Positions 28,176-30,388 of a DNA stretch of 31,098 bases are shown here, piece by piece. A program made the position numbers and the translations under genes. The notes under the pieces were generated by a model. It was not told the DNA's origin and did no database searches. It was given only the letters and a program-made list of their open reading frames with translations. Position 1 is the stretch's first letter. Each line of letters opens with the position of its first letter. Source of the DNA: a virus; IMG/VR virus record IMGVR_UViG_3300037042_000849, positions 1 to 31,098 of that record. One strand, written 5' to 3'.

Positions 28176-28442
28176 ATGGTTGACGATTCAGTTGTAGCCA
28201 CAGTGGTTAAGGCCAGTAAGAAGTCTGAGGCTGTTGTCCGCGCCGTTTTGACTGCGCTTGAGAACGCTCTGTCGGGTGATCCGGTGGGCACGGTGGTTCA
28301 GGACCCTGAGAATGGTTCTGTGGCTGTGCGTGTCTCTGAGGATGGTGTCCCGGTGTGGCGGGTGAACACCTTGAATGGAAATGAGTATCGGGATGCCCAA
28401 CCCACCTTGAAAGGGTGGACGGTCATTTCGGCAATTAAATAA
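28176..28442 (+). CDS. Small protein ending the structural operon
   Basis: An 88 aa protein, ATG 28176, with TAGGGA upstream, six nt after the previous stop. A helical N-terminal half (ATVVKASKKSEAVVRAVLTALENAL) is joined to a beta-rich half (GSVAVRVSEDGVPVWRVNTLNGNEYRD...). It is the last rightward gene before the bidirectional terminator. No family is recognised. Its compact two-part fold and position suggest a minor virion or assembly protein. Confidence 0.7.
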   Translation: MVDDSVVATVVKASKKSEAVVRAVLTALENALSGDPVGTVVQDPENGSVAVRVSEDGVPVWRVNTLNGNEYRDAQPTLKGWTVISAIK

Positions 28443-28447
28443 AGAAC

Positions 28448-28489
28448 GCCCCCTGGATGATGTTTATACATCATCCGAGGGGCTTCTTT
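28448..28489. terminator. Bidirectional terminator between convergent arms
   Basis: A long hairpin pairs 28448-28463 with 28468-28483 around a 4 nt TTAT loop, with a single mismatch and one G-T pair. On the + strand it is followed by TTCTTT, and on the - strand by GTTCTTTA. It starts a few bases after the last structural gene and covers the stop codon of the leftward integrase, so it can end transcription from both arms. This is the best terminator in the window. Confidence 0.9.
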
Positions 28490-29865
28490 GTGTTCAAAAG
28501 GGTTTGTATGTTGTCGGGTGTGAACATTCTTTGGTTGAGTGCTTCGGTGCCTGGGATTCGTTGGATGAAGAACCGTATGCCGGATTGGAGTAGCAGTTGC
28601 CGGCGTTCCTCTGTGTCGGCGGTTTCCCATGCTTCTGCGTAGGTTATATCGGTTTGGATATACTCCCACCCAGCTTCCCGGGTTTCCAGCTTTTCCAGGG
28701 CAGTTATCTGAGAATCTAGGGCGCTCAGTTGCTCCGTAAGGCGTTTTCTCATGGTGTCGCTAGTGACTGCCCCGAGAAGGGGTGTTAGTTCGTCTACGGC
28801 CCGTACAGCCTCGTCTAACTGCATTTTATGGTTTTCGGCCTGCCGGTAAACCCTTCTCTGCACATTCAACGCCCCAGCAGCCTCAATAAAAGCATCCCCA
28901 ACCAATTCCTCAACAATCTCAGCCTCAACCTGACCGCAATGACCCTTAACCCGGCAATGATAATACCGATACAAACGCCTACCGTAATCGCGGCGATAGA
29001 TTTTATGAAACAAGTTCAATTCACAAACAAAACATTTCACCACACCATTCAAAGGCGCCGTGTCCCGCGTCCGGTGAGGACCCCGCCGACGCGCCTCGAG
29101 CGCGGCCTGCAACTGATCCCAAGTATCCTGAGTCAGAATCGGCTCAGCGTTCAGGACAGGCTTACCCTGCATGTCCCTGACCGTCTGCCCCTCGTAGGTG
29201 GCATGACCCAACAGGTACTTAGCGGTCAGCATTTTCCAGAACGTCGAAGGCAGCGTGTCCCGCTTGAAAGCCACCTTTTCGACAGCAGCGCCGGCAATGA
29301 CCTCATCGACAATCTCACGCACCACAGGGGCTTCCTCAGGGTGCAACCCCAGCCGGTAACCTCCCCCGGGTAGCTCCACAGCGGTCAACCCAAACGGCAC
29401 CTGACCACCCGGCCAACGGCCAGTCTCCAACAGCCTCTTACGGGACGCTTTCGTGCGCTCCTTAATAGCCTCTAGTTCGCCCTCAGCGACACCAGCTATG
29501 ACGTTCGCTACCAGACGCCCAACCCAGTTCGACAGGTCCAAAGATTCGCTCATGGAGACGAGAGTTTTGTCGTGCTCGATCATCCACCCAAAGACTTCGT
29601 TCAGGGCGATCACACGGCGACTCAGGCGGTCTAGGCGCCACACCACCAGGACGTCCCACTCGTCCCGTTTGTCCTCCCCAAACCAAGGACCTAGACCGGG
29701 TGCGTCGAAAGGGCTCACAGAACCAGAAACGTCGACGTCCTCAGCCCACCCGACAACGGTGTGATCGTGGAGGTTCGCGTACTGTTCAATCAGTTCCCGT
29801 TGCCGCTCTACGCTGGTACTTTCCTCTTTGAACCTTGATAGCCGCACCCGGCCTAGAATCCTCAT
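28471..29865 (-). CDS. int: Large serine integrase
   Basis: A 464 aa large serine recombinase that inserts the phage genome between attP and attB. The catalytic domain has Ser10 in the GRVRLSR motif, TSVERQRELIEQYA, and Arg77/Arg80 in VVWRLDRLSR. The recombinase domain follows (KERTKASRKRLLETGRWPGG, QVPFGL). A zinc ribbon is formed by Cys278, Cys281, Cys304 and Cys310, and a coiled coil at ~340-395 precedes the C-terminal tail. The layout and many segments (EDVDVSGSVSPFD, GHATYEGQTVRDMQGKPV) resemble the Bxb1-type enzyme. The stretch between the two DNA-binding domains seems shorter than in Bxb1. The start ATG has no Shine-Dalgarno, and the predicted transcript begins at or within a few bases of it (leaderless). 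Confidence 0.95.
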   Translation of the reverse strand: MRILGRVRLSRFKEESTSVERQRELIEQYANLHDHTVVGWAEDVDVSGSVSPFDAPGLGPWFGEDKRDEWDVLVVWRLDRLSRRVIALNEVFGWMIEHDKTLVSMSESLDLSNWVGRLVANVIAGVAEGELEAIKERTKASRKRLLETGRWPGGQVPFGLTAVELPGGGYRLGLHPEEAPVVREIVDEVIAGAAVEKVAFKRDTLPSTFWKMLTAKYLLGHATYEGQTVRDMQGKPVLNAEPILTQDTWDQLQAALEARRRGPHRTRDTAPLNGVVKCFVCELNLFHKIYRRDYGRRLYRYYHCRVKGHCGQVEAEIVEELVGDAFIEAAGALNVQRRVYRQAENHKMQLDEAVRAVDELTPLLGAVTSDTMRKRLTEQLSALDSQITALEKLETREAGWEYIQTDITYAEAWETADTEERRQLLLQSGIRFFIQRIPGTEALNQRMFTPDNIQTLLNTKKPLG

Positions 29866-29871
29866 ACCGGC

Positions 29872-29923
29872 AGTCTACAATGCCTCTACTATGATTTGTC
29901 AAACGCTAGGGAGTGTAGATACT
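29872..29923. other. attP: Candidate attP site
   Basis: Imperfect dyad symmetry: 29875-29885 and 29908-29918 match as inverted repeats at 9 of 11 positions (10 of 12 when extended to 29874/29919). A further short symmetric core surrounds the centre at 29896/29897 (dinucleotide TT). Total span of about 50 bp with two half-sites and an asymmetric central dinucleotide is the architecture of serine-integrase attP sites. These normally lie directly beside the integrase gene, as here. It overlaps the integrase promoter and the last codons of the dCMP deaminase. An operator for a regulator would look similar, so attP is a proposal. Confidence 0.5.
29874..29902 (-). promoter_or_regulatory. Integrase promoter, sigma-70 type, probably leaderless
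   Basis: On the - strand a perfect TTGACA (-35, + strand 29897-29902) is followed after 17 nt by TGTAGA (-10, 29874-29879), or with 19 nt by TAGACT (29872-29877). The expected start of transcription, 6-8 nt further, falls at about 29865-29868; the integrase ATG begins at 29865. With no Shine-Dalgarno present, a leaderless mRNA, common in Actinobacteria, is the simplest reading. Confidence 0.65.
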
Positions 29924-30388
29924 CATTGATCCTTTGACGTGGGCCTGAGCAGCCTTGCGAGGACATAACCCCGCATGTGGCATCCCACAGCCGTTGCAAT
30001 ACTCCGGTTTAGGCCACACCACCGCACGAACGCCGGCACCCTGAATCAGTTTATCGCAGGCATAACACGGCTCCCTAGTAACGTACAAGGTGGCGCCTAC
30101 AAGGTCCTGGCGGTCACAGTGCAGAAGCGCATTAGCCTCAGCGTGAATAGCTACACACCGGGTTTGTCCTTGATCGTAGTCAGATAGTCCAGCAGTCGCT
30201 CCTGATATTCGTCTAGGGCACGAATCACAGCCGGGTTGTCCGGAAGGCGCACCGTTATACCCAGCAGAGCGGATCCGACGATCCTTGACCACGACAGCAC
30301 CAACCTTGGACCGTTCACAATCCGAACGAGCAGACACCGCTTCCGCGACACCAATCCAATAGTCATCCCAACCCAACCTTCCTGTCAT
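29906..30388 (-). CDS. Deoxycytidylate (dCMP) deaminase
   Basis: A 160 aa zinc-dependent deaminase converting dCMP to dUMP, which feeds dTMP synthesis for phage replication. The catalytic motif is complete: His82-Ala83-Glu84 in CVAIHAEANALL and Pro107-Cys108-x2-Cys111 in TREPCYACDKLI. The N-terminal KVGAVVVKDRRIRSAGYNGAP strand and the CDSCP cysteines (54, 57) are typical of phage dCMP deaminases. An additional cysteine group, Cys131-x2-Cys134 and Cys142, occurs in a C-terminal extension. The ATG at 30388 overlaps the end of the upstream gene by 4 nt (ATGA). Its stop lies within the right half of the candidate attP. Confidence 0.92.
   Translation of the reverse strand: MTGRLGWDDYWIGVAEAVSARSDCERSKVGAVVVKDRRIRSAGYNGAPSGQPGCDSCPRRISGATAGLSDYDQGQTRCVAIHAEANALLHCDRQDLVGATLYVTREPCYACDKLIQGAGVRAVVWPKPEYCNGCGMPHAGLCPRKAAQAHVKGSMSIYTP

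Follow-up and report, generated by a model that had tools for sequence, protein, structure and literature searches.

The 46-bp segment at positions 29874–29919 of the virus record analysed here (31,098 bases in all, referred to below as the window) is most probably the attP of a cluster A-type large serine integrase, the int-proximal half of which would also form the core of the promoter of the integrase gene (int), with integration swapping the upstream half of that promoter. We put the probability of this reading at about 0.78. Serine integrases of the Bxb1 class are standard genome-engineering tools but, to our knowledge, there are few good descriptions of how phages limit integrase after integration. 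One simple layer of such control would be a leaderless promoter core conserved within attP.

The int region of the window shows kinship to cluster A mycobacteriophages, and judging from these relatives alone the host of the phage would be actinobacterial. At the right end of the window, a partial DNA polymerase A gene is accompanied by a small gene, a gene for dCMP deaminase (29906–30388) and, directly adjoining attP, int itself (28471–29865), all four on the minus strand. The 464 amino acid int product matches the Pfam Resolvase (4e-22) and Recombinase (2e-6) domains and the PHROG integrase family (1e-107), and its nearest relatives are the integrases of Topanga and Twister at ~64% identity (64% for Twister). 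With int starting at 29865 and the deaminase gene ending at 29906, the 40-bp gap reported between them in an earlier note on this DNA is correctly placed. The deaminase gene is co-directional with int and its stop codon falls within the distal half of attP, so the deaminase would be left intact by integration. In Twister, Benedict and Swirley a divergent gene lies between int and the deaminase gene; this is absent from the window (29866–29905), where the deaminase gene directly adjoins attP.

Compared with other close relatives, 11 residues of the recombinase domain are missing from the window integrase and from that of the relative L017 (2001–3392). The L017 sequence suggests natural variation rather than an assembly error, and because these residues are missing, the activity of the window integrase cannot be assumed. 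Between int and a convergent tail operon, positions 28436–28500 form a very stable stem–loop (z −9.3 and −8.0) that is probably a bidirectional terminator.

The evidence for attP begins with the inverted repeat that the earlier note described in the gap. We verified its arms (29875–29885 and 29908–29918, with 9 of 11 positions matching), its centre at 29896/29897 and the letters of two hexamers 17 bp apart: TGTCAA at 29897–29902, which reads TTGACA on the minus strand, and TCTACA at 29874–29879, which reads TGTAGA on the minus strand. By themselves these arms carry no significance, since 19% of shuffles of the 120 bp contain 11-nt arms that match at 9 or more positions. The full repeat, TCTACA-N34-TGTAGA at 29874–29919, has 14 of 23 pairs matching, which is seen in ~2% of shuffles, and has the form of an imperfect inverted repeat of ~46–50 bp with a central crossover dinucleotide. 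We judge it to be real because it is conserved: immediately upstream of int, Twister, Topanga, phiGD24-3 and L017 each have a repeat of the same 46-bp length whose ends resemble TCTACA and TGTAGA, and such a repeat is also present in the attP sites rebuilt from the prophage ends of G006 and G003 (see below). The relatives that share the repeat upstream of int have integrases that are 54–64% identical, and this homology bears out the earlier identification of the site as attP. As RNA, the attP sequence folds no better than its shuffles (z 0.43). In the relatives L018 and L020, attP and the start of int are identical whilst the upstream genes differ from the outer edge of attP onwards, as would happen if attP and int moved as a single module.

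The position of the crossover can be read from three relatives. The 8-bp core TACGACTT accounts for the difference between phiGD24-3 (54,877 bp) and prophiGD24-3 (54,885 bp); it is present at both prophage ends and corresponds to positions 17–24 of the inverted repeat, at its centre. In Mycolicibacter sp. MYC340 (G006), comparison of attL, attR and the empty sites of relatives places the exchange within GATCC (repeat positions 20–24), and the two ends of the element rebuild a 46-bp repeat, TCTACAAAGCCCCTTTAATGATCCATCGTACACAGGGCATTGTAGA. In the third case, a prophage of Mycobacterium sp. D16Q14 (G003) inserted in a gene that we take from its translated sequence to be glgP (glycogen phosphorylase), the shared core GACAGATC corresponds to repeat positions 20–27, and the attP rebuilt from this prophage has the same length of 46 bp. 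Transferred to the window by homology, the overlap of these cores defines a crossover region at 29896–29900 (repeat positions 20–24), with the central dinucleotide likely to be 29896–29897 (TT on the plus strand). The earlier proposal that crossover occurs at the centre of the repeat is in keeping with all three sets of junctions, and both the identity of attP and the position of the crossover appear well supported by homology.

No prophage carrying the window's attP was found in genome contigs or in viral contigs, using two integrase queries for each, and a first scan of genome contigs with close relatives likewise yielded none. The large provirus contigs G001 and G002, when searched for the MabJ attB, contained intact attP only. 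A Bxb1 attB sequence had no match among 396 genomes and we therefore claim no Bxb1 hybrid. The core found at the prophage ends in D16Q14 (L060, L179) resembles the corresponding window sequence, GACAAATC, and an attB similar to that of D16Q14 might therefore serve the window phage.

A likely −10 element, TAGACT (a match to TANNNT), is located at 29872–29877 on the minus strand, 6 nt ahead of the int start codon, a spacing from which transcription is predicted to begin at the A of the ATG (29865, minus strand) to give a leaderless mRNA. There is no Shine–Dalgarno sequence for int, and an in-frame stop codon (TAG) overlaps the −10. When the region 5–8 nt ahead of the start codon was inspected in 20 representative related integrase genes, TANNNT was present in every one (13 at 6 nt, five at 7 nt and two at 8 nt), with 1.1 expected, and in none was there a Shine–Dalgarno sequence. 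In mycobacteria, SigA prefers TANNNT as its −10, a conserved −35 is lacking, and about 24% of M. smegmatis transcripts are leaderless (PMC6448022). The window sequence, with TAGACT 6 nt from an ATG, has the form of a leaderless SigA promoter (TANNNT 6–8 nt ahead of RTG with no Shine–Dalgarno sequence) and, in agreement with the leaderless promoters of mycobacteria, we infer that int mRNA is made leaderless from TAGACT.

That the int promoter overlaps attP had been proposed earlier, and this part of the proposal stands; the −10 then chosen, TGTAGA, does not, the likely −10 being TAGACT, two bases further on. TGTAGA is the att arm, lacks A2 and T6, the bases that count most in a −10, and was not reported by a promoter scan. 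In addition, the register of the arm relative to the start codon varies between relatives (in L017 and G003 the arm overlaps the ATG) whilst TANNNT stays 6 nt away, indicating that conservation of the −10 is independent of the arm. In searches of an open-access library we found no description of a leaderless int promoter inside a cluster A attP. The annotated integrase starts of phiGD24-3 (L003:3001–3025), prophiGD24-3 (L004:39–63) and prophiGD43A-4 (L008:39–63) lie 24 nt downstream of the conserved leaderless start and appear to be mis-set. Similar upstream sequence is also seen in a set of Streptomyces serine recombinases (L085, L086, L102, L104, L109, L113 and L115), mostly together with TAGCAT 6 nt before the start (TACTAT in L086 and TATGAT at 7 nt in L104), and leaderless recombinase promoters may reach beyond the mycobacteria.

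How might integration affect int? RNA polymerase would use TAGACT and start at or beside the first base of the ATG. Before integration, the −35 region would consist of phage DNA, here including TTGACA, and the deaminase operon would also read towards int. Crossover at 29896–29900 would leave int, its start codon and the −10 joined at one end of the prophage, with everything upstream becoming host DNA, and int transcription would as a consequence depend on the host site (attB). The integrated gene would lose TTGAC- and operon read-through, retain its −10 and possibly gain a host promoter. Both the activity of the promoter and its change on integration are what we infer from this layout, which makes it likely that int transcription depends on integration state.

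The same layout bears on a second reading, to which we give somewhat less than even odds, in which the overlap serves mainly for autorepression, with Int at attP or attL blocking RNA polymerase in both states. The −10 and start lie inside or at the edge of the P half-site, and as both would be covered when Int occupies attP or attL, autorepression is likely. There is also a precedent in KplE1, where Int and the RDF repress an int promoter that overlaps attL (PMC2951348). Autorepression is, however, compatible with an exchangeable promoter half and does not exclude it.

The earlier note went further, proposing that loss of the −35 box makes integration a built-in off-switch for int; in this form int transcription needs TTGACA and is silenced by its removal. 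TTGACA (29897–29902, minus strand) and TAGACT (29877–29872) do flank the crossover at 29896–29900, and integration would indeed separate the −35 region from the −10, although from TAGACT and not from the −10 originally named. The coordinates given for TTGACA to the right of the centre are also correct, but the box runs into the crossover region at its 3′ end, so that it straddles the edge of the crossover instead of clearing it. The spacer to TAGACT (19 bp, compared with 17 bp to TGTAGA) is longer than usual. The window contains 14 copies of TTGACA, the number expected by chance, but a copy falling within the right five positions occurs with a frequency of only 0.0006 in shuffles, which favours a dedicated switch, as does the GTGACA-17-TACTGT of L024 and L025, nearly as good a match (5/6) and likewise with its −35 in the distal half. 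Against this, TTGACA is not conserved: the full match is found in the window, and the remaining relatives match at 2–4 of 6 positions. Furthermore, all three mapped cores have the G–A at repeat positions 20–21, and nearly every att site keeps it in each of its half-sites, implying that this part of TTGACA is integrase recognition sequence, and the incoming host half would probably restore the GA of the −35. No L5-like stoperator (phage repressor) site is present at TTGACA, nor is there a repeated 12-mer family in the window.

Comparison of −35 scores across the family gives a mean of 3.29 for free-form attP and 2.5–2.64 for integrated attL. This is a hint that falls short of demonstration, with p values of 0.015 for all sites (uncorrected), 0.08 when each attB group contributes a single site and 0.12 when the window is left out. 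Given in addition that the −10 stays with int and that mycobacteria lack a conserved −35 (PMC6448022), we consider a dedicated switch unlikely. A clean off-switch on integration is possible but unproven, and would not be a family trait acting through TTGACA; the firmer and more general result is the leaderless −10 that is found family-wide within attP or at its edge.

The MYC340 element also speaks against a built-in switch. This 10.7-kb element (L063, 9950–20722), possibly a satellite, carries a serine integrase and is inserted in the pyrR leader. The host pyr leader and an apparent promoter, GCTAGGCT, that is also present in the empty sites of relatives, come to lie upstream of its int, and the insertion separates this apparent pyr promoter from pyrR, so that it faces int instead. 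Such an arrangement would be the opposite of silencing and, with int gaining an apparent host promoter, implies that the outcome of the swap depends on attB. By extension, and as a tentative generalisation only, the cluster A-type attP may be an int promoter with a fixed leaderless −10 and an exchangeable distal half, in which attB sets the level of integrase in the lysogen, nearly silencing int at one extreme and giving it a captured host promoter, for example that of the pyr operon, at the other.

The least probable reading, that the overlap is compact packing only, with free-phage int supplied by read-through from the deaminase operon and the promoter features of attP mattering little, draws on the co-directional deaminase gene ending within attP and on co-directional genes that also end near attP in L017, L018, L022 and L024, but sits poorly with the lack of a Shine–Dalgarno sequence for int and with a −10 spacing that is kept in 20 of 20 genes, even where the neighbouring gene is divergent (Twister, Naca and Swirley).

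Minimal attP fragments may carry a promoter if the core lies inside attP as proposed. The conserved leaderless start also offers a means of correcting annotated integrase starts, and the conserved layout one of locating attP sites beside unannotated integrases.

Several known systems bear comparison with this one. Lyras and Rood (2000; cited in PMC13023037) are said to have described how the promoter of the large serine recombinase TnpX of Tn4451 and Tn4453 forms when the ends of the element are joined in the circular form. As here, promoter boxes lie on opposite sides of the crossover of a large serine recombinase; Tn4451/Tn4453 are, however, clostridial transposons, whereas in the present case int would keep both its −10 and its start, and the half carrying TTGACA is not conserved across the family. 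Bxb1 has an integrase of the same cluster A serine class and a TACGGT 8 nt before the ATG, but differs in having no TTGACA and other arm sequences; this TACGGT presumably sits inside the published attP, which abuts the ATG. In ICEclc and ICEKp1 the circular form transcribes int from the other end of the element and, when integrated, ICEKp1 transcribes it from a host promoter (PMC13023037). The int promoter is state-dependent there, as it would be here, but these elements insert in tRNA genes and their promoters lie outside att, rather than having a core inside attP. The promoter of KplE1 intS, like that described here, overlaps the recombination site; the KplE1 integrase represses its own gene, and among prophages inserted at tRNA genes an overlap of the int promoter with attL is described as widespread (PMC2951348). 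KplE1 differs, however, in having a lambda-like integrase and a tRNA gene target, in that the overlap is described for attL, and in that the promoter is active in the prophage. Finally, in integration-dependent immunity attP lies within the repressor gene (PMC8092301). Here too the placement of attP lets integration alter a phage regulatory gene, although it is the C-terminus of the repressor that is altered in that case and the int promoter in this one. The layout that we describe is common to many related phages and resembles arrangements already known from other mobile elements.
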